DNA of 42,280 nucleotides. Origin: Deltaproteobacteria bacterium (lineage in GTDB: Bacteria; Desulfobacterota; GWC2-55-46; UBA9637). Below the pieces are notes generated by a model. The model searched no databases, was not told where the DNA came from, and was given only the letters and a program-made list of their open reading frames with translations. Every line of letters starts with the position of its first letter. Within the stretch, counting starts at the first letter, position 1. Positions 7,476 through 40,020 of this stretch are shown here, piece after piece. The translations under genes and the position numbers were made by a program. The stretch spans positions 1-42,280 of the forward strand of contig JACQEJ010000131.1 in the NCBI GenBank assembly GCA_016200645.1, read 5' to 3'.

Positions 7476-7487
7476 AAATTTATAAGG

Positions 7488-7562
7488 CTATGGGCAATGG
7501 GCTATAGGCTATAGTTTTTTGTTTTTCCCCTATTGCCCCTCCCCTATTGCCTATTGCCTGTT
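7488..7562. repeat. Inverted heptamer tracts (GGGCAAT/CTATTGC family)
   Basis: gctatgggcaatgggctataggctatag ... cctattgcccctcccctattgcctattgcctg. Confidence 0.85.
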
Positions 7563-8706
7563 CTTTCCACCTTTGCTCCGTCAAATAACTGGTCAAGGCC
7601 GGTTGTGGCAACGATCTCTCCGGGCTTCACCCCTTCAGCAATCTCTACCATGCCTGCCTCACGGATACCGGTCTGTATCAGCCGTTCTCTGGCTGCGCCA
7701 TTGACAATCACATAGACCTTGTTTATGCCGACATAGGAATATACGGCATTCTCTGGAACAAAGGGGACATCTTTTTCCTCTTTCAGTTTGATAACAGCCC
7801 TGGCAAAAAAACCGGATTTCAATTTATTGCCTGGATTAGGCGCTTCAGCCTCAATGGAAAAAGTCCTGGTCTTTTCATCAATTGAGGGGCTTACGCGGAT
7901 AATCTTGCCAGGAAATGTCTCATTCGGATATGCATCTATATGGATAGCAATATCCTGGCCAACCTTTACCTGAGGGGCAAAAGGCTCCGGCACATTGCCA
8001 AGAAATTTCAGCGGATCATTCTTGACCAGTATAAAGAGCGGGGCTTTGTCCTTGAGCATCTCTCCCGCCGATACAAGCCTTTTTTTCACATAGCCTGTTA
8101 TAGGCGATCTTATTTCTGTATCCGCAAGCTGCTTCTTTGCCGCTTCAAGCTGCGCCTTTGTCTGATTTACCTGAGCATCCGCCTGCTTTAACTGGGCGTC
8201 TGCCACATCATACTGGGTCTGCACGGCATCACGCTGGCTTACAGAAACAACGCCTTCTGAGAAAAGGTTTGCATATCTCTTGAGATTTGTGCCGGCCTCC
8301 GTCCAGACAGCCTTTGCCCTTTCAAGGCTGCGGATATTGGTCTCCAGCGCAGCCTCGGCATTATCAAGATTTGCTCTGGCGTCTTTCTGGTCCAGTCTAA
8401 GCAGGAGCTCTCCTTCCTTTACCCTATCGCCGAGGTCGGCAAATATCTTTTCAATGGCGCCTGGGCTTTCATTGCCGACCGTAACCTCATCCCACGGCGC
8501 CAGTGTCCCTGTTGCCTCAATGGTCCTTTGAACAGTTTTGCCTATTGCGACTGCGGTATTTATTTTAAATACGCTTTCCCCTTTGTTCTCAGCCTTTTTT
8601 ACCGCCTCGTTTCCTTTGGAACAAGACACGAGAATCAGCGCGGCCGCCGCTATGCATATTGCGCTGAAAAAATATGTCATATTTGACTTATAAGACCTAT
8701 TTTTCA

Positions 8707-8707
<1 letters not shown>
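7544..8707 (-). CDS. RND periplasmic adaptor / membrane fusion lipoprotein
   Basis: 387 aa; lipobox-like LILVSC, GTLAPWDEVTVGNESPGAIEKIFADLGDRVKEGELLLRLD biotinyl-lipoyl region. Confidence 0.92.
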
Positions 8708-10034
<1,327 letters not shown>

Positions 10035-10038
<4 letters not shown>

Positions 10039-10778: not shown

Positions 10779-11717
10779 ATGGAAGAAACAATTCATGTTT
10801 CTGTAAAGATTGCTTCGCTGCAGAAAAACCTTGAAAAGATAATCAAAGGGAAGCCGGATGTTATCAAACAGGCGATAACAACCCTTATAGCCAAAGGGCA
10901 TTTGCTTATAGAAGACGTTCCCGGCATAGGCAAGACAACCCTTGCCCACGGGCTTGCCAGAAGTATAAACTGCACATTTCAGAGGATACAGTTTACAAGC
11001 GACCTCCTCCCCTCTGACATTACAGGCGTTACAATTTATAATCAGGAAAAGCATCTGTTTGAATTTAAACCCGGCCCTATCTTTGCCCATATTATACTGG
11101 CGGACGAGATAAACAGAACGACGCCGAAGACGCAGAGTTCTTTGCTTGAGGCAATGAATGACAGGCAGGTCTCTGTTGACAAGACAACCCATCCGCTGCC
11201 GGAGCCTTTCATGGTTATTGCAACGCAAAATCCGCTGGAATACGAAGGGACATATCCGCTGCCGGAGTCTCAGCTTGACAGGTTTATGATGAGGATACGG
11301 ATAGGCTATCCTGAAAGAGAGGCTGAAAAGAAAATACTTCTGTCTCCTTCCGGCGACCTTCAACCGCAGCATCTTGCCCCTGTCCTGTCCACAGATGAGG
11401 TAATACTCCTACAGACGATGGTGGATAAAATAAAGGTTGACGACGACCTGGTGAATTATATCCTTGCAATTGTAGATGCCACAAGAAAATCCGACAGACT
11501 GCGATTGGGCGTAAGCCCGCGCGGGGCCATGATGCTTTATCGCGCTGCGCAGGCATTCGCCCTCGTAGACGGCAGAACCTACTGTATTCCCGATGATATA
11601 AAAATGCTTTCCATATCTGTATTCAGCCACAGGGTGATTCAAACCGCGGAAGGAGAAACAGAAGATGTTGAAGCGCACATACAGGAGATAGTTGAAAATA
11701 TTGAAGCGCCGCTGTAG
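10779..11717 (+). CDS. MoxR-type AAA+ ATPase
   Basis: Start placed at the internal ATG of ORF 10500..11717 (MEETIHVSVKIASLQK; MNCSD at 10752 also possible). GHLLIEDVPGIGKTTLAHGLAR, HIILADEINRTTPKTQSSLLEAM. Confidence 0.93.
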   Translation: MEETIHVSVKIASLQKNLEKIIKGKPDVIKQAITTLIAKGHLLIEDVPGIGKTTLAHGLARSINCTFQRIQFTSDLLPSDITGVTIYNQEKHLFEFKPGPIFAHIILADEINRTTPKTQSSLLEAMNDRQVSVDKTTHPLPEPFMVIATQNPLEYEGTYPLPESQLDRFMMRIRIGYPEREAEKKILLSPSGDLQPQHLAPVLSTDEVILLQTMVDKIKVDDDLVNYILAIVDATRKSDRLRLGVSPRGAMMLYRAAQAFALVDGRTYCIPDDIKMLSISVFSHRVIQTAEGETEDVEAHIQEIVENIEAPL

Positions 11718-11790
11718 CTGATAGTTGATAGCTCATGGCTCATAGCCCATCGTCTTACATATCAGCTATGAGCTATGAGCTATGAGCTAT
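11718..11790. repeat. Inverted heptamer tracts (CTCATAG/CTATGAG family), second copy
   Basis: ctgatagttgatagctcatggctcatagccc ... atcagctatgagctatgagctatgagctat between moxR and DUF58; overlaps the DUF58 start codon. Confidence 0.85.
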
Positions 11791-12867
11791 TTATCCGCCC
11801 CCCTGCCCTGGCTTACCGCATTTGCCAAACTGCTCACAAGAAAAAAACCGAGGGGCAAACAACCCGCCTCTCCCCCCTTTACCAAAGGGGGGTTGGGGGG
11901 GCTGCTTATCCTTCCCAGAACGCTATCCTTCACAAAAGAAGGGAAAAGGTTTATTGCAATCCTCTTTGTAATCGGCATAGCTGCCATCAATACGGGAAAC
12001 AATCTCCTTTATCTTATTGTGGCGATGATGCTGTCCATCATAGTCATATCAGGCATACTTTCAGAATCTACCTTAAGGGGCATAGAAATATCCAGAATAT
12101 TGCCGACTCATATATTTGCAAAAAGACCAGCAGCCATCCGATGGGGCATTGCAAATAAAAAAAGATATTTCCCCTCATTCTCTCTTTCCATAGATGAACT
12201 TTCCCAGGGTGGATTTTCTGCCGAATCAGGCTATATCATAAAGCTGCTGGCCGGCGACTCTGTTACTCAGACTCGCTTCTATACCTTTCCTCAAAGAGGG
12301 TTGTATAAACTGGAGGGCTTTAAAATAACAACCCGCTTTCCCTTTGGTTTTTTTCGCAAAGGGAGGAGATTGCCGATGGCGGCAAACATGCTGGTATATC
12401 CGAATATAAAGCCCATAAGACAGGGAGCTGCTCATGGCCTTTCAAAAAGCGGGGATTGGGCTGAAAAAGTCAAGGGGCTAGGCGCCAACCTGCGCAGCAT
12501 CAGAGATTATACATTCATGGATGATTCAAGGATTATCCACTGGAAGTCAACAGCCAAAACTGCAAGGCTGATGGCAAAGGAATTTGAACAGGAAGGGAAA
12601 AAAAGGGTAGAGATTGTTTTTCATAATACGCTCGCCGAACACCCTGGCTTTAAAAATGAATTTGAAGATAAGGTTGAAGAGGCTGCCGGCATAGCTGATT
12701 ATTTTATAAGAACGGGTTTTGAAGTGGGTTTTAGAAGCCTGACCGCAGATTTGCCGTGCAAGCCTGGCAAAGAGCAGCTTTACAGAATATTAAAAGAGCT
12801 TGCACTCATAGAGCCTGTAGCAGGCGATAAAGCTCTGCCTTTAACTATAGAGGTTATAAGCCGATGA
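11782..12867 (+). CDS. DUF58 domain protein
   Basis: 361 aa; NLRSIRDYTFMDDSRIIHWKSTAKTARLMAKEFEQE is the DUF58 signature; between moxR and the transglutaminase gene. Confidence 0.88.
   Translation: MSYLSAPLPWLTAFAKLLTRKKPRGKQPASPPFTKGGLGGLLILPRTLSFTKEGKRFIAILFVIGIAAINTGNNLLYLIVAMMLSIIVISGILSESTLRGIEISRILPTHIFAKRPAAIRWGIANKKRYFPSFSLSIDELSQGGFSAESGYIIKLLAGDSVTQTRFYTFPQRGLYKLEGFKITTRFPFGFFRKGRRLPMAANMLVYPNIKPIRQGAAHGLSKSGDWAEKVKGLGANLRSIRDYTFMDDSRIIHWKSTAKTARLMAKEFEQEGKKRVEIVFHNTLAEHPGFKNEFEDKVEEAAGIADYFIRTGFEVGFRSLTADLPCKPGKEQLYRILKELALIEPVAGDKALPLTIEVISR
11872..11902. repeat. Palindrome CCCCCCTTTACCAAAGGGGGGTTGGGGGGGC inside DUF58
   Basis: 9-bp perfect arms with a 3-nt loop; encodes SPPFTKGGLGG. 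Confidence 0.85.
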
Positions 12868-18019: not shown

Positions 18020-18066
18020 AATTATAAGACTTATAAGACTTATAGGTCTTATAAGACTTATAATTA
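18020..18066. repeat. Near-perfect dyad of TTATAAGAC units at the 3' end of polA
   Basis: aattataagacttataagacttataggtcttataagacttataatt; arms pair with about two mismatches. Confidence 0.85.
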
Positions 18067-20862
18067 TTCCAGCTCTCCCCAATTTCTGCCGGCCTGAATA
18101 TCAACCTTTACAGGCACAGACAGTTTGGCTGCCGTTTCCATCTCTTTTTTTACGAGACCCTTCATCAATTCTATTTCTTTTTCCGGCACCTCAAAGATAA
18201 GCTCATCGTGAATCTGAAGCAGCATTCTTGATTGAAGATTTTCGTTTTTTAATCTTCTGAATATATTTATCATTGCGACTTTTATGATATCTGCCGCTGT
18301 CCCCTGTATGGGAGTATTGATTGTTATCCTTTCGCCAAACCTTCTTATCTGTTCGCTCTCGCTTCTAATCTCCGGCACATGCCTGCGCCTGCCAAAGAAC
18401 GTTGATACATAGCCCCTTTCCATTGCCTCGCTAATGGTTTTATCTATGAATGCCTTTACTCCCTTATAATAAAGAAAATAATCATCTATATATCCCCTTG
18501 CCTCATCCTGAGATATGCCCAGTTCTGCGGCTAAACCATAAGCCCCCATGCCGTAGATAATGCCGAAATTTATGGCCTTAGCCCTCCTCCGCATCTCCGA
18601 CGTAACAAGCTCCGGCTGAACGTTGAAGACCTCTGCCGCTGTCCTTGTATGCACATCCTCGTCTTTTTTGAACGCATCTATCAAAAGAGAGTCTTGGGAA
18701 AAATGTGCGACAATCCTGAGCTCTATCTGCGAATAGTCAGCAGATAAAAATAACCAGCCCTCATCAGCAATAAATGCCTGCCGGATTCTCTTGCCCAATT
18801 CTGTTCTTATGGGGATATTCTGGAGATTAGGCTCTGAGCTGGAAAGCCTGCCTGTGGCTGTAACGGTCTGATTAAATGATGTATGAATCCTCCGGGTCTT
18901 CGGATTTATAAGCTCCAGCAGGGCATCCACATAGGTTGATTTGAGCTTTGAGAGCTGCCTGAAATTTAAAATCTCGGCTGGCAATTCATGCTGAGCAGCA
19001 AGGATATTTAAGACCTCCTCATCCGTGGAAAATCCTGTCTTCGTCTTTTTTACCGGTTTTAATTTGAGTTTGTCAAATAAGACTGCCGCAAGCTGTTTAG
19101 GCGAGCTTATATTAAAGTCTGCTCCGGCAATTGTATAAATCCTGTTTTTCAGAATCTCAATCCTGCCTTCCAATTCTTTTGAAAGGTTTACAAGATAGTC
19201 TCTGTCCACCTTAATGCCGCTCCGTTCCATTTCCGCCAGAACCTTGGCCAATGGCATCTCCATTTCGTTAAAAAGTTTTAAAAGCCCCTCTCCTTCCAGT
19301 TGCGGCAGCATTTTCTCGGCAAGCTGACACACCGCATCGGCCTCGGCGCAGGTCTCTGCACAAACAGCATCCAAATCTTGACCCTTGACCCTTGACCCTC
19401 TGACCCTCTGACTCTTTGACTCTCTGACTCTTATTTGACGGCCTAATTGTTCATACGCAATATCCTCCAGCGTATGGCTTGACCGCGAAGGATTTAAGAG
19501 ATACGAGGCAATGCCGGTATCAAAATACACACCCTTCATATCAATGCCATGCTGTTTAAAAAACAGATAAACGTTTTTTATATCAGATGACATTTTTTTT
19601 ATGCCTTCATCTTCAATCATCGGTTTGATGATCTCAAGGATAGAGCGCGCGGGTAGGAGCGGGGCTTGTCCCCGCCCGTCATCATCAATTGAAACATAAA
19701 ACGCCTGATGCGGTTTTAAACAAAAGGCAACCACTGAAGAAGTTGAGAGTTGGGAGTTCGGAGTTGGGAGTTGAGAAAGAGATGTGTTGAAGAGTTGAGG
19801 CTCATTACTCCCTGATTCTCTGATTCTCTGACTCTCCGACTCTTTGACTCTTTGACTCCCTGCGGGCTTTAAGCAGGTCTCCGAACTCCGAACTGTCATC
19901 ACAGCAATCGCAGCGCCCCCCGCCTGTTTTATCTCCGCCGTCAATTTCTTCAACGCGTCTCTATCTGTTACGGCAGTGTATTCACCCTTCTCCTCCGCAG
20001 GTTCTTCCTGAATAATCTCTTTTAATAACTTGCTAAACTCCAGTTCCTTGAGCAGCTCTTTGAGCCTTGAATAATCAGGCGGCTTTACCGCAAGCTCTTC
20101 AAATGTATAAGCTACAGGCGCATTCGTATCTATGACGGCAAGCATTCGCGAAAGACGCGCATCTTCCGCATATTTTTCTAATTTCTCCCTAATCCCTTTT
20201 TCTTTCACCTTGTCAATATTGGACAAAAGATTTTCAATGGTTCCAAACTCCCGTATTAGCTTCACCGCAGTCTTTTCGCCGATTCCCTTCACCCCGGGTA
20301 TGTTATCCGAATCATCTCCTGCAAGGCCCATGATCTCCACAACCCGATCAGCCTCCACACCGAACCGTTTCCTCACCTCTTGAACGGAAAATCTCTTATC
20401 CTTCATGGTGTCAATCATGGTGGTGTTTTCATCTATGAGCTGGAGCATATCCTTGTCCGCCGCTATGATTATCACCTCTATATTTTTTTCTCTCATGTGC
20501 CGGGATAACGTGCCGATAATGTCATCGGCCTCATATCCCTGCATTTCAAGGGCAGGGATATTAAACGCCCTTACCAATTCTTTTATATACGGTATTTGCG
20601 GCTTGAGGCTGTCCGGCATCTCAGGCCTGTGCGCCTTATACTCCTCATACATCTTATGCCTGAAGGACGGCCCCTTGACATCAAATGCAACAGCTATATG
20701 GTCTGTTTTGAAATCTTTTATGACCTTTAACAACATTTGAGCAAAGCCATAGATGGCATTGGTAGGAAGCCCCTTGGAATTGGAAAGATGGGGAATGGCA
20801 TGAAATGCCCTGTAGATATACGAGCTGCCGTCTATAAGGAGGAGCTGTTTTTTCATAAACAC
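18064..20862 (-). CDS. polA: DNA polymerase I with in-frame repeat insertions
   Basis: 932 aa; KKQLLLIDGSSYIYRAFHAIPHLSNSKGLPTNAIYGF 5' nuclease, AINFGIIYGMGAYGLA and LLQIHDELIFEVP polymerase motifs. Start may be MKKQ, 6 nt downstream. Confidence 0.96.
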   Translation of the reverse strand: MFMKKQLLLIDGSSYIYRAFHAIPHLSNSKGLPTNAIYGFAQMLLKVIKDFKTDHIAVAFDVKGPSFRHKMYEEYKAHRPEMPDSLKPQIPYIKELVRAFNIPALEMQGYEADDIIGTLSRHMREKNIEVIIIAADKDMLQLIDENTTMIDTMKDKRFSVQEVRKRFGVEADRVVEIMGLAGDDSDNIPGVKGIGEKTAVKLIREFGTIENLLSNIDKVKEKGIREKLEKYAEDARLSRMLAVIDTNAPVAYTFEELAVKPPDYSRLKELLKELEFSKLLKEIIQEEPAEEKGEYTAVTDRDALKKLTAEIKQAGGAAIAVMTVRSSETCLKPAGSQRVKESESQRIRESGSNEPQLFNTSLSQLPTPNSQLSTSSVVAFCLKPHQAFYVSIDDDGRGQAPLLPARSILEIIKPMIEDEGIKKMSSDIKNVYLFFKQHGIDMKGVYFDTGIASYLLNPSRSSHTLEDIAYEQLGRQIRVRESKSQRVRGSRVKGQDLDAVCAETCAEADAVCQLAEKMLPQLEGEGLLKLFNEMEMPLAKVLAEMERSGIKVDRDYLVNLSKELEGRIEILKNRIYTIAGADFNISSPKQLAAVLFDKLKLKPVKKTKTGFSTDEEVLNILAAQHELPAEILNFRQLSKLKSTYVDALLELINPKTRRIHTSFNQTVTATGRLSSSEPNLQNIPIRTELGKRIRQAFIADEGWLFLSADYSQIELRIVAHFSQDSLLIDAFKKDEDVHTRTAAEVFNVQPELVTSEMRRRAKAINFGIIYGMGAYGLAAELGISQDEARGYIDDYFLYYKGVKAFIDKTISEAMERGYVSTFFGRRRHVPEIRSESEQIRRFGERITINTPIQGTAADIIKVAMINIFRRLKNENLQSRMLLQIHDELIFEVPEKEIELMKGLVKKEMETAAKLSVPVKVDIQAGRNWGELE
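19376..19433. repeat. In-frame CTCTGACT-type tandem repeat in polA
   Basis: cttgacccttgacccttgaccctctgaccctctgactctttgactctctgactctt, encoding RVRESKSQRVRGSRVKGQD. Confidence 0.9.
19651..19680. repeat. In-frame palindromic element in polA (GCGGGGCTTGTCCCCGC)
   Basis: Encodes DGRGQAPLLPA in the polA frame. Confidence 0.8.
19740..19896. repeat. In-frame compound tandem repeats in polA
   Basis: gttggga/gttcgga heptamers followed by (GACTCTTT/GATTCTCT)n octamers and gaactccgaact; encodes SSETCLKPAGSQRVKESESQRIRESGSNEP...SQLPTPNSQLSTS. Confidence 0.9.
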
Positions 20863-21827: not shown

Positions 21828-21902
21828 AGTCTACAAGTCTACAAGTCAAATAGCCTACAAGTTTAAAAACTTTTAGGCTCGTAGGCTAACAACTTGTAGG
21901 CT
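21828..21902. repeat. Inverted CTACAAGT tracts between rplS and rnhB
   Basis: acagtctacaagtctacaagtcaaatagcctacaagtttaaaaacttttaggctcgtaggctaacaacttgtaggctgt. Confidence 0.85.
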
Positions 21903-24233: not shown

Positions 24234-24256
24234 TTTACCCTATACCTCCTTAAAAT

Positions 24257-24305
24257 CTCAAACCTAAAGGTTTGAGTTACTGTAACTCAAGGCTTTAGCC
24301 TTGAA
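24257..24305. repeat. Twin-hairpin element, copy 1 (AACCTAAAGGTT / AAGGCTTTAGCCTT)
   Basis: ctcaaacctaaaggtttgagttactgtaactcaaggctttagccttgaa between ffh and rpsP. Confidence 0.9.
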
Positions 24306-24308
24306 GTT

Positions 24309-25649
24309 TTAAAACGGCAAAAGCCCTCTTCCGCCAATCTGTGGCAATCCGCCTTTGGAAAATCTTTTCATCATCTCCCGCATTTGAACATACTGTTTGA
24401 CCAGTTTATTCACTTCCTGAACAGATGTGCCGCTTCCCTTTGCAATCCTCTTTCTCCGGTTAGCGTTAAGGATGGTATGGCTGAGCCGTTCCTCTTTTGT
24501 CATGGAGTTTATGATAGCCTCTATCCTTACCAGGCCCTTTTCATCGGGTGTAACACCGGATTTTTTCTGCATCTCTTTAAAACCGGGAACCATTGCAAGT
24601 ATGCTCTCAAGGCTGCCCATCTTCTTTATCTGGCCCAATTGCTCCCTGAAGTCCTCCAGTGTAAAGGCGTCTTTTCTTAACTTTCTCTCCAGTTCCTTTG
24701 CCTTTTTTTCGTCAACAACTTCCTGCGCCTTTTCTATGAGCGTAAGCACATCGCCCATGCCAAGTATCCGGCTCGCCATCCTGTCAGGATAAAACGGCTC
24801 TATGGCGTCTATCTTTTCTCCAACACCGATAAATTTTATCGGCTTGCCGACAACAGCCTTTATGGAAAGGGCAGCGCCGCCTCGTGCATCGCCATCCAGT
24901 TTTGTAAGTATTATACCGGTAATTCCAACTGCCTCATTAAACCCTTTTGCTGTATTCACTGCATCCTGGCCGGTCATGCTGTCCGCAACAAAGAGAATCT
25001 CCTTAGGATTAAGAATGTTCGTGAGATCCTTCAACTCCCCCATCAATTCATTATCTATATGCAATCTTCCCGCTGTATCTATAAGGATGGTATCATAACC
25101 TTTAACATCAGCAATCCTGCGCGCTTCCTGACATATAGCTTGCGGTTTAAGGTCAGCGTTAGCATCAAAGACATCTACATTTATATCATTGGCAAGCTTT
25201 TTAAGCTGAAGCACGGCTGCAGGCCTATATATATCCGCCGGAACCAGGTATGGATTCCTGCCTTTTGACTTCAGGTGCCTTGCGAGCTTGGCAGCAGTTG
25301 TGGTTTTGCCGGACCCCTGCAATCCGACAAGCATGATTACTACAGGCGGTTTTGAGCCAAGGTCAAGACCGTGAGAGCTCCCGCCTAAAATCTCTACCAG
25401 TTCATCGCTGACAATCTTTATAAACTGCTGTCCAGGCGTAAGGCTTTCCAGCACCTCCTTGCCGATTGCCTTAGCCCTTACCTTTTCAGTAAAATCTTTG
25501 ACAACGGTAAAATTGACATCAGCCTCCAGGAGCGCCATCCTGACATCCTTTAATGCATCCTGGATGTTTGCCGCGGACAAACTTCCCTGCCCCCGTAGCC
25601 TCTTTATGATTATACCTAGTCTGTCGCTTAAACTTTCAAACATACTCAA
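24309..25649 (-). CDS. ffh: Signal recognition particle protein Ffh
   Basis: LVGLQGSGKTTTAAKLARHLK, DTAGRLHIDNELMGEL, LTKLDGDARGGAALS, Met-rich M domain. Confidence 0.97.
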   Translation of the reverse strand: MSMFESLSDRLGIIIKRLRGQGSLSAANIQDALKDVRMALLEADVNFTVVKDFTEKVRAKAIGKEVLESLTPGQQFIKIVSDELVEILGGSSHGLDLGSKPPVVIMLVGLQGSGKTTTAAKLARHLKSKGRNPYLVPADIYRPAAVLQLKKLANDINVDVFDANADLKPQAICQEARRIADVKGYDTILIDTAGRLHIDNELMGELKDLTNILNPKEILFVADSMTGQDAVNTAKGFNEAVGITGIILTKLDGDARGGAALSIKAVVGKPIKFIGVGEKIDAIEPFYPDRMASRILGMGDVLTLIEKAQEVVDEKKAKELERKLRKDAFTLEDFREQLGQIKKMGSLESILAMVPGFKEMQKKSGVTPDEKGLVRIEAIINSMTKEERLSHTILNANRRKRIAKGSGTSVQEVNKLVKQYVQMREMMKRFSKGGLPQIGGRGLLPF

Positions 25650-37803: not shown

Positions 37804-40020
37804 CTAATCCCTTTTTTCCTTTTGGTCAAGCGAGCGGTAGTCAACTGCCTTCCTAAACGCCGCCTCCGCCTCTTGCGGCTTGTTCTGCTTGAGAGAGAGA
37901 AGACCTATGGCATACCAGACATCTCCCTCCTTGCCCTTTTCCCTCAGGGCAAGCCGGTATTCCTTATGGGCGTCGTCATATTGTCCTATATCCTGAAGTA
38001 TATTTGCCTTGAGGAAATGGGCGTAATTATTATTGCCATTTTTGTTGAGCAGCCAATCTATCTCCTTCAGAGCGCTGTCATATTCTTTATTCATCCTGTA
38101 TGCTTCGCTGATTTCTATATGAGCCTCTCCATCATCCGGTTTTTCTTTAAGATATTTCTTGAATTCATCTATTGCGTTTTTGTATCGCTTCATTTCCAGA
38201 TACAACACGCCAAGATTGTAGGTTATGCTCATATCAACCGGATCAAGCTCCCGCGCCTTTTTAAGCATCTCTACGGCAGCATCGCCTTTTTCTTTTAAAT
38301 AAAATGTCCGGTAAAAAACCGCCATATTAAAATAGAGGTCGCTCCGGTATGGGCTTAAGGACTGCGCCTTTGTCATCTCCTCTTCCGCCTTTTTCAATAT
38401 CAGCGGATCGGAAGAATATTTTGCCAGCGCTATGCCGAGGTTAAAGTGATAGCTGTCATCAATGGGATCCAGCTCAACCGCCTTGCTGAAAAATTTAACA
38501 GCCTTTTCATATTCGCCTTTTCCAAGAGATACCCTTCCCCGCGCATTATAAAGCCCTGCAAGATATGGGTCGGATACCCAAAAACATAAAAAAGCGAATA
38601 TGCCTGCTGTAATGATATACAGCTTTTTCTTCCCCAGCAGGGTGAATATGCGGAAGGAGTTGAAATCTATCACCTTTGTTTTACCCCCACACCAAAAGTT
38701 TTGGTGTGGGGGGTTGCATAAGCCCAATACCCTTGCTGTGCTGGAGGTATAGGCAATATAACCCCAGAAGATAAAAAGGACGGCAGGGATGTATAAGTCA
38801 AAATCGCTGATAGTGTGGATGAGCATTAGAAATGCGCCAATCATGGTGGAAAGGAGCATGATGCGGTCTGTAGGGGCAGGTTTCAAACCTGCCCCTACTT
38901 TCAGACAGCGAAACCCTTCTCTGAAATAAAGATATATCAATATCAAAAATACTCCAACCCCGATAAGCCCCAGTTCTGCCCACAATTGAAGGTAGTCGTT
39001 GTGGCTGAAGTAGTGTTCCACATTTTGGTAAATCTGATTTTTATACTTTGAATAGATGGTATGAAAACTCCAGAAGCCGACGCCTCGTATGGGATGCCCT
39101 TGTATAACCTCCCATGTGCTTCTCCAGATATTCAGCCGGTCCTGTGTTGAGCCTGACAGCTCGGCCGGTTTGGGAGATAGAGACACCTTGCCGTTTCCGA
39201 TAGGGGCGAAGAATATTAAAAGCACCGCCAAAAAACCTATGGCTAACAATACAAGTCTTTTTCTGGCAGGTGAAGCAAAGAGCCAGAAAAGCAGCAAGGC
39301 CGTTCCCACTGCCGCAGCAAGAAGTATCCACCTGCCGCCGGTGCCTGTGGCAAGGAGGGCTGCGAAGGCAAGCATATTTAAGAGAAAAAAGATAATCGCA
39401 TTGCGTTTTGCCGCAAGATACAGCCACATCAAAACCGGCATGGTCAAGAGGAGATAGCCTGCAAAGGAATTTGGGGTAACAAACGCCGCCTGCGCCCTTC
39501 CTTCAAAATCGCTGCGGCCTGTAATGTATTGGTAGAGAGCAAACAGAGAAAACGCGGATACCGCGATTCCAAGAACAGCACACAACCCTTGCCATAACCT
39601 TTGTTCTGATATCAGAGGTCTTCCCTCAAGGCTAAAGCCTTGAGTTACACCTTTGTAACTCAAACCTTCAGGTTTGAGAAGACGATTACAAGAAACAAAC
39701 GAAAGAAATGCCCCGTTTATTATCACGCTCGCCATTGTAAAAAAGCCGTATCTTGTGGACGGCGGATTTATGGTGAAGAGGTATGAAAGGGCGATAACAG
39801 CCAGAAAGAGAAATGAGACAATTGATAATGGCGATGCAGATATTTTTAAAACGCCTTGTTCAATAACCTGCCACAGAAATGAGAGGATGAGAATGTTTGT
39901 GCCGAGGAATATGAGGGTGAATGCCAGATAATTGCCGGGGCCTCTGATGAATGGGGTAAGGATAATTAAGGAAGCGTTAAAGATAAAAAGCCAGATTGTG
40001 TGAAATGATTTTTGCGTCAT
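37804..40020 (-). CDS. O-antigen ligase/polymerase (Wzy/WaaL-like) with C-terminal TPRs and in-frame repeat peptides
   Basis: 738 aa; many TMs, HPIRGVGFWSFHTIYSKY...VEHYFSHNDYLQLWAELGLIGVGVFL Wzy_C motif, then multiple TPR units. Confidence 0.9.
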   Translation of the reverse strand: MTQKSFHTIWLFIFNASLIILTPFIRGPGNYLAFTLIFLGTNILILSFLWQVIEQGVLKISASPLSIVSFLFLAVIALSYLFTINPPSTRYGFFTMASVIINGAFLSFVSCNRLLKPEGLSYKGVTQGFSLEGRPLISEQRLWQGLCAVLGIAVSAFSLFALYQYITGRSDFEGRAQAAFVTPNSFAGYLLLTMPVLMWLYLAAKRNAIIFFLLNMLAFAALLATGTGGRWILLAAAVGTALLLFWLFASPARKRLVLLAIGFLAVLLIFFAPIGNGKVSLSPKPAELSGSTQDRLNIWRSTWEVIQGHPIRGVGFWSFHTIYSKYKNQIYQNVEHYFSHNDYLQLWAELGLIGVGVFLILIYLYFREGFRCLKVGAGLKPAPTDRIMLLSTMIGAFLMLIHTISDFDLYIPAVLFIFWGYIAYTSSTARVLGLCNPPHQNFWCGGKTKVIDFNSFRIFTLLGKKKLYIITAGIFAFLCFWVSDPYLAGLYNARGRVSLGKGEYEKAVKFFSKAVELDPIDDSYHFNLGIALAKYSSDPLILKKAEEEMTKAQSLSPYRSDLYFNMAVFYRTFYLKEKGDAAVEMLKKARELDPVDMSITYNLGVLYLEMKRYKNAIDEFKKYLKEKPDDGEAHIEISEAYRMNKEYDSALKEIDWLLNKNGNNNYAHFLKANILQDIGQYDDAHKEYRLALREKGKEGDVWYAIGLLSLKQNKPQEAEAAFRKAVDYRSLDQKEKRD
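38684..38712. repeat. Perfect palindrome inside the O-antigen ligase gene
   Basis: cccccacaccaaaa-g-ttttggtgtggggg, 14-bp perfect arms; encodes NPPHQNFWCGGK. Confidence 0.9.
38870..38898. repeat. GTAGGGGCAGGTTTCAAACCTGCCCCTAC palindrome inside the O-antigen ligase gene
   Basis: Perfect dyad; encodes VGAGLKPAPT. Confidence 0.92.
39625..39678. repeat. Twin-hairpin element, copy 2, in frame in the O-antigen ligase gene
   Basis: ctcaaggctaaagccttgagttacacctttgtaactcaaaccttcaggtttgag (54 bp = 18 codons). Confidence 0.92.

Follow-up and report, generated by a model that had tools for sequence, protein, structure and literature searches.

How does the gene of a core enzyme come to carry in-frame repeats in its interior, and does the enzyme have any use for them? 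The question is raised by a polA gene in the window analyzed here, i.e., the whole stretch of 42,280 nucleotides of contig JACQEJ010000131.1 from a member of the Deltaproteobacteria. An earlier note on this DNA had claimed that the gene carries at least three in-frame, repeat-derived insertions and had likened them to the Rickettsia palindromic elements.

Three inserts in the exonuclease domain

The encoded protein is the only DNA_pol_A match in the host genome (G000), an assembly of 1.98 Mb in 201 contigs. According to a domain search it consists of a 5'-3' exonuclease, an exonuclease-like and a DNA_pol_A domain. In an alignment of 32 sequences the residues D709 and H885-D886-E887 are invariant. 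The AlphaFold model has a mean pLDDT of 85.9 and is superimposable on Klenow with a TM score of 0.92, normalized to the target.

The claim of at least three in-frame insertions is borne out. The frame is open from 20862 to 18064 on the minus strand, all four peptides quoted at the time are present in the translation, and repeat-derived peptides are located in frame at three sites, all of them within the degenerate 3'-5' exonuclease domain. The count of sites stands at three, yet site 1 is composite and accommodates two of the four peptides (Table 1).

Table 1. Coordinates of polA, its inserts and two further repeat features of the window.
Feature	Position	Strand	Remarks
polA, DNA polymerase I	18064..20862	-	932 aa, reading frame uninterrupted across all inserts
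Site 1, composite insert in place of a short native loop	19735..19898	-	aa ~323-375
Site 1, outer heptamer arm AGTTCGG x2	19879..19898	-	
Site 1, octamer array, GAGTCAAA-like x7	19807..19862	-	sense orientation; peptide SQRVKESESQRIRESGS
Site 1, heptamer array AGTTGGG x4.7	19741..19773	-	inverse of the AGTTCGG arm; peptide SQLPTPNSQLSTS
Site 2, GTAG-tagged REP hairpin GTAGGAGCGGGGCTTGTCCCCGCCCGTC	19653..19680	+	aa ~395-405; coding-strand peptide DGRGQAPLLPA
Site 3, octamer array grading into AAGGGTC heptamers	19376..19432	-	aa ~478-497; peptide RVRESKSQRVRGSRVKGQD
Two heptamer arrays, signal-peptide region of an OEP/TolC-like gene	9951..10031	-	ORF 8707-10038 (-)
Hairpin with tandem ATAGCTC-type heptamer arms	11709..11797	.	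z -4.1; example of the paired-arm form

The three sites differ in their DNA. Site 1 has two AGTTCGG units, then seven GAGTCAAA-like octamers and then 4.7 heptamers of the CAACTCC/GAACTCC type. The heptamers on the two sides of the octamers mirror each other as inverted copies; the 170-nt strand folds with a z of -2.63, and only one of 200 shuffles folds equally well. Site 3 is a plain tandem array of AGAGGGTC/AAGGGTC octamers and heptamers (x6.5 at 19379-19428) which does not fold (z = -0.75). Site 2 is a short stem-loop with the tetranucleotide GTAG at one end, as is diagnostic of GTAG REPs, and belongs to a dispersed multi-copy family with six close copies genome-wide; about 20 GTAG stem-loops are present in a 0.55 Mb sample of the genome.

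GTAG-tagged REPs inside genes have been reported, DNA polymerase I being among the targets, and RAYTs are believed to mobilize the class (Di Nocera et al., 2013, PMC3733652). Site 2 shares with them the tag, the stem-loop, the dispersed family and even the in-frame place in DNA polymerase I, whereas sites 1 and 3 are tandem arrays of 7-8 nt units which lack the GTAG tag. The site 2 element probably arrived by mobility of the REP/RAYT type. The genome has two Y1_Tnp genes (IS200/RAYT-type); at their loci no flanking copies of the site 2 REP were seen. A second in-frame REP in the window is apparent at 38869-38898, where a GTAG palindrome within ORF 37804-40020 (-) encodes VGAGLKPAPT. The 3' end of polA has a repeat of its own: adjoining the stop codon is a 9-nt array (18022-18063; TTATAAGAC, x4.7) which looks self-complementary, apparently a hairpin with tandem-repeat arms.

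Are the inserts ordinary protein sequence? Alignment with the PolA proteins of relatives rules this out. We looked for the same residues, conserved as normal protein, in G001 and G003 (same genus) and in G005 to G007 (same family) and did not find them: these five have neither the arrays of sites 1 and 3 nor the palindrome of site 2. G003 has an unrelated segment at site 2. In G001 the loops GGAIFGELTG and IPTGHRYLGAPSQIDRR resemble Klenow; the host has the material of sites 1 and 2 instead. Pure insertion without loss is thus an incomplete account, because the native loop is missing at both sites.

Different pictures are obtained with other relatives. The closest one, G002, is 89% identical over the C-terminal part of PolA. 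At site 3 it has four AAGGGGC units between the same flanks as in the host, at site 1 it has different heptamers, AACTCGG and CAATCCG, and at site 2 GTAGGGGCGGG, read by eye on the reverse strand as half of such an element. In G004, G008 and G010 site 1 or site 3 is occupied by arrays of 7- or 8-nt units. All 7- and 8-nt arrays in the PolA genes of these relatives are located in the exonuclease domain (TRF score >= 40). The polA of G002 (L010) is split into two overlapping frames, by an assembly error or a real frameshift.

The exonuclease domain appears to have been impaired beforehand. In the following comparison with Klenow, in which the top structure match is a D355 mutant, we take D355, E357, D424 and D501 to be the native numbers of the Klenow exonuclease residues. 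The uninserted protein of G001 has no acidic residues at the positions of D355 and E357 and has not kept D501; D424 is kept. Loss of proofreading would then have preceded the insertions.

In the AlphaFold model pLDDT drops below 50 at residues 327-372, 395-400 and 481-494 only, i.e., at sites 1, 2 and 3. The inserts are predicted to lie in disordered loops, and because low pLDDT is also expected where alignment depth is lacking, disorder is supported by these values, not proven. Together with the relatives that do without inserts, this sustains the earlier proposal that the host sites are structurally permissive. In describing the elements the earlier note was too narrow, as the arrays of sites 1 and 3 are tandem and such arrays are found genome-wide.

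Short arrays throughout the genome

We sampled 0.55 of the 1.98 Mb of the host and 0.46 Mb of G001, with simple ORFs as gene calls. In 546 kb of the host (514 kb without Ns) TRF reported 237 arrays versus 3 after mononucleotide shuffling at the same settings. The period is a multiple of 7 in 179 of the 237 (76%). The density of heptamer-type arrays is 35 per 100 kb in the host versus about 4 in loci from other phyla; overall array density in G001 is about half that of the host. A single universal heptamer motif does not exist: the host has 58 unit classes and G001 has 25, of which 7 are shared, a set which is still far from random.

A third of the sampled arrays reside inside ORFs. Both-strand stops were encountered in 10 of 63 coding arrays as opposed to 77 of 135 non-coding ones. 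Several arrays are even inside Pfam domains, namely those of ArgS (DALR), HypE (AIRS), CbiD (two arrays), CobS, a tetrapyrrole methylase and a LivF-like ABC ATPase. Tolerance of such inserts is, therefore, not peculiar to polA, since like arrays are inside other core genes. At the arrays of ArgS, HypE and the methylase the G001 sequences are gapped or poorly aligned; one of the CbiD arrays is common to G001 and the host.

The polA octamer forms 43 arrays in the whole genome, and elements of the ATAGCT type are present at many loci in four relatives. Slippage by itself leaves unexplained why the octamer and ATAGCT families occupy many unrelated loci, which suggests some mobility. In-frame copies of the octamer were also noticed at L224:1501-1540 (TsaD-like), L216:1501-1530 (ABC-ATPase-like) and L220:1339-1375 (regulator-like), all names being assigned by eye. 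Within the window, ORF 11782-12867 (+) contains the repeat-like peptide SPPFTKGGLGG (about 11836-11890); the stretch that encodes it is absent from the orthologue of G001 and for the most part from that of G004.

Paired arms and the replacement of units in place

Between genes the arrays frequently come in pairs. Among 135 non-coding arrays 44 have an inverted partner within 150 bp and one has a direct partner; a random match was obtained for none. With a less strict threshold the paired arrays number 64 of 198 in the host and 18 of 74 in G001. The loci from other phyla yielded a single pair, which stems from G004 itself (L135). The pairs are locally specific: they comprise 34 unit classes, and different pairs match each other in 6% of cases. 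For two octamer hairpins the folding z is -7.4 and -5.9.

The octamer deserves separate consideration. Its pairs are of one polarity without exception (14 of 14) and have similar loops; 15 further arrays are single. Ten loci of single octamer arrays were checked. Seven are in ORFs, two of these in polA, one in HypE and four elsewhere, and the unit reads in sense in all seven, its antisense form containing TGA. In genes, a lone stop-free arm was the sole form of the octamer encountered, and between genes the arrays often are hairpins with complementary arms. As selection alone would leave only sense units in coding regions, the orientation is uninformative on origin.

At a few orthologous sites the position and the approximate length of an array persist, and the unit has been replaced in all copies. 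This evolutionary pattern is directly observed. In the OEP/TolC-like gene (9998-10031) the host has (AACTTTG)5 versus (AAATTTG)5 in G001, G002 and G003, except for a single unit in G002 and one in G003. In a simple uniform model the chance of five units changing independently and identically at one phase is about 3e-7. At one site in CbiD all five genomes have a heptamer array, built from four different units as read by eye from the alignments: AATTTCA (host and G002), CACTTCC (G001), ATTCAAG (G004) and GAAAATC (G003). The other CbiD site has (AATTTCA)n in the host, G001 and G004 and a GGAGTNN array in G002. Concerted turnover is seen at a handful of sites; for the arrays of the window at 21828, 23051, 23957 and 25863 the orthologues are too poorly aligned.

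Two further observations were made. Of 92 sampled arrays in ORFs, 34 are located within the first 45 codons, as against 14% expected by length, many of them in hydrophobic N-termini which resemble signal peptides. A stretch of about 160 bp (L069:8155-8316 versus L268 of G002) is identical in the host and G002 amid roughly 90% identity, possibly due to recent recombination or shared reads.

Origin of the inserts and known repeat systems

We consider it fairly probable that the peptides in PolA arose as by-products of a repeat process acting genome-wide, in which slippage, template switching at hairpins and selection cooperate, and are not working parts of the polymerase. The mechanism which we infer has three steps. 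Replication slippage would multiply and homogenize the units. Template switching across a hairpin would copy one arm into the other, which would account for a unit peculiar to each pair. Selection would remove insertions except those that are free of stops, neutral to the frame and positioned in surface loops. The bias toward heptamers fits an idea reported in PMC4679880, namely that the polymerase contacts 7 nt of DNA. There is no need to assign the inserts a function in PolA.

Only tentatively would we go one step further, with odds that we judge to be somewhat against us: the arrays may constitute a distinct class of self-copying repeats. Tandem 7-8-nt units would form the arms of hairpins, and arm-to-arm copying together with slippage would re-invent the unit in place. 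Within genes, stop-free arms would then supply proteins with new segments in a frame-tolerant manner, for instance core enzymes with disordered loops and exported proteins with signal peptides.

Could the arrays instead be mobile cassettes, i.e., hairpins with tandem arms which are transposed, perhaps by the two Y1 transposases, the copies in genes being half elements? We regard this as rather unlikely. The 43 dispersed octamer arrays of one family, with pairs of one polarity and similar loops, the many loci with ATAGCT-type elements in four relatives, the two Y1_Tnp genes themselves and the site 2 REP, being of a class whose movement is ascribed to RAYTs, all speak in favor of transposition. 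Yet most hairpins have a unit of their own, common to both arms and not to other hairpins, and from species to species it is the unit that changes while the site stays. Neither a target duplication nor defined ends were identified.

That the inserts are adaptive and were kept because they alter PolA activity, e.g., by creating a mutator or recruiting a partner, is highly improbable. It is true that several species of the order have arrays again at sites 1 and 3, and that, according to a speculation of Di Nocera et al., repair genes are altered in activity by REPs within them (PMC3733652). However, close relatives have inserts of wholly different sequence, G001 and G003 have none of them, the segments are predicted to be disordered, and the same arrays are present in unrelated enzymes such as ArgS and CbiD. 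An assembly artefact, or removal of the segments from mRNA or protein, is scarcely credible: the assembly is fragmented and the G002 copy of polA is broken by a frame change, but the arrays are short (about 50 nt), separate assemblies have them at the same sites, no stop interrupts the frame, stops are filtered out of the units in genes, domain and Rfam searches found neither a splicing domain nor an Rfam family in polA, and the window as a whole has no Rfam match.

The reading as by-products of a repeat process has to be placed among known systems. RPEs are palindromic families. RPE-4 and RPE-6 have been equated with REP-type elements (PMC3733652). The likeness consists of in-frame, repeat-derived peptides in unrelated genes, essential ones included; the difference is that the arrays of the host are tandem and that site 3 does not fold. 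The analogy drawn in the earlier note holds for site 2 as a GTAG REP and partly for site 1 with its inverted heptamer arms, but fails at site 3, for which a pure RPE analogy must be rejected.

STRRs are heptanucleotide tandem repeats of cyanobacteria. The arrays of the host are STRR-like, being short, degenerate 7-nt arrays, dispersed and abundant. Published heptanucleotide repeats are TAACTGA in Beggiatoaceae (PMC4679880) and GGGAATC in Xanthomonas and GGGGA(C/T)T in Nostoc (PMC4692102). Like those of the host, these are short arrays of degenerate 7-nt units which are very numerous in a genome and mostly intergenic. In the published cases one motif is dominant and the interior of coding regions is avoided (PMC4679880, PMC4692102), whereas the host has dozens of coexisting unit classes, many pairs of inverted arms, turnover in place and a large fraction of arrays in ORFs, domain interiors included. 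The tandem repeats of Borgs evolve rapidly and encode disordered protein regions, and all their ORF repeats have units divisible by three (PMC9879509). The arrays of the host are similar as rapidly evolving tandem repeats which encode disordered segments; they differ in that units of 7 and 8 nt, not divisible by three, are inside ORFs, and in that the host molecule is a bacterial chromosome.

Taken by itself, the polA case adds one more example to known phenomena. What is unusual is that paired arms, concerted change and in-frame arrays across core genes come together. Searchable open-access papers contain no description of this combination or of hairpins with tandem heptamer arms; as most subscription journals were outside the search, novelty is provisional. 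One would expect essential genes to lose from their interior any repeat with a unit not divisible by three. In this genome such repeats are frequent and occupy predicted disordered loops of core enzymes, and at several sites the arrays change their unit in concert while the frame is kept. The five related genomes are a natural system for studying the birth and homogenization of short arrays, the reason for seven nucleotides and the entry of peptides into conserved proteins.

Two other dispersed elements of the window were noticed. One of about 50-60 bp (about 24249-24311) matches both strands and has dozens of copies in four genomes of the same genus. Another of about 80 bp (about 7486-7567) has many copies at 71-83% identity in four same-genus genomes.
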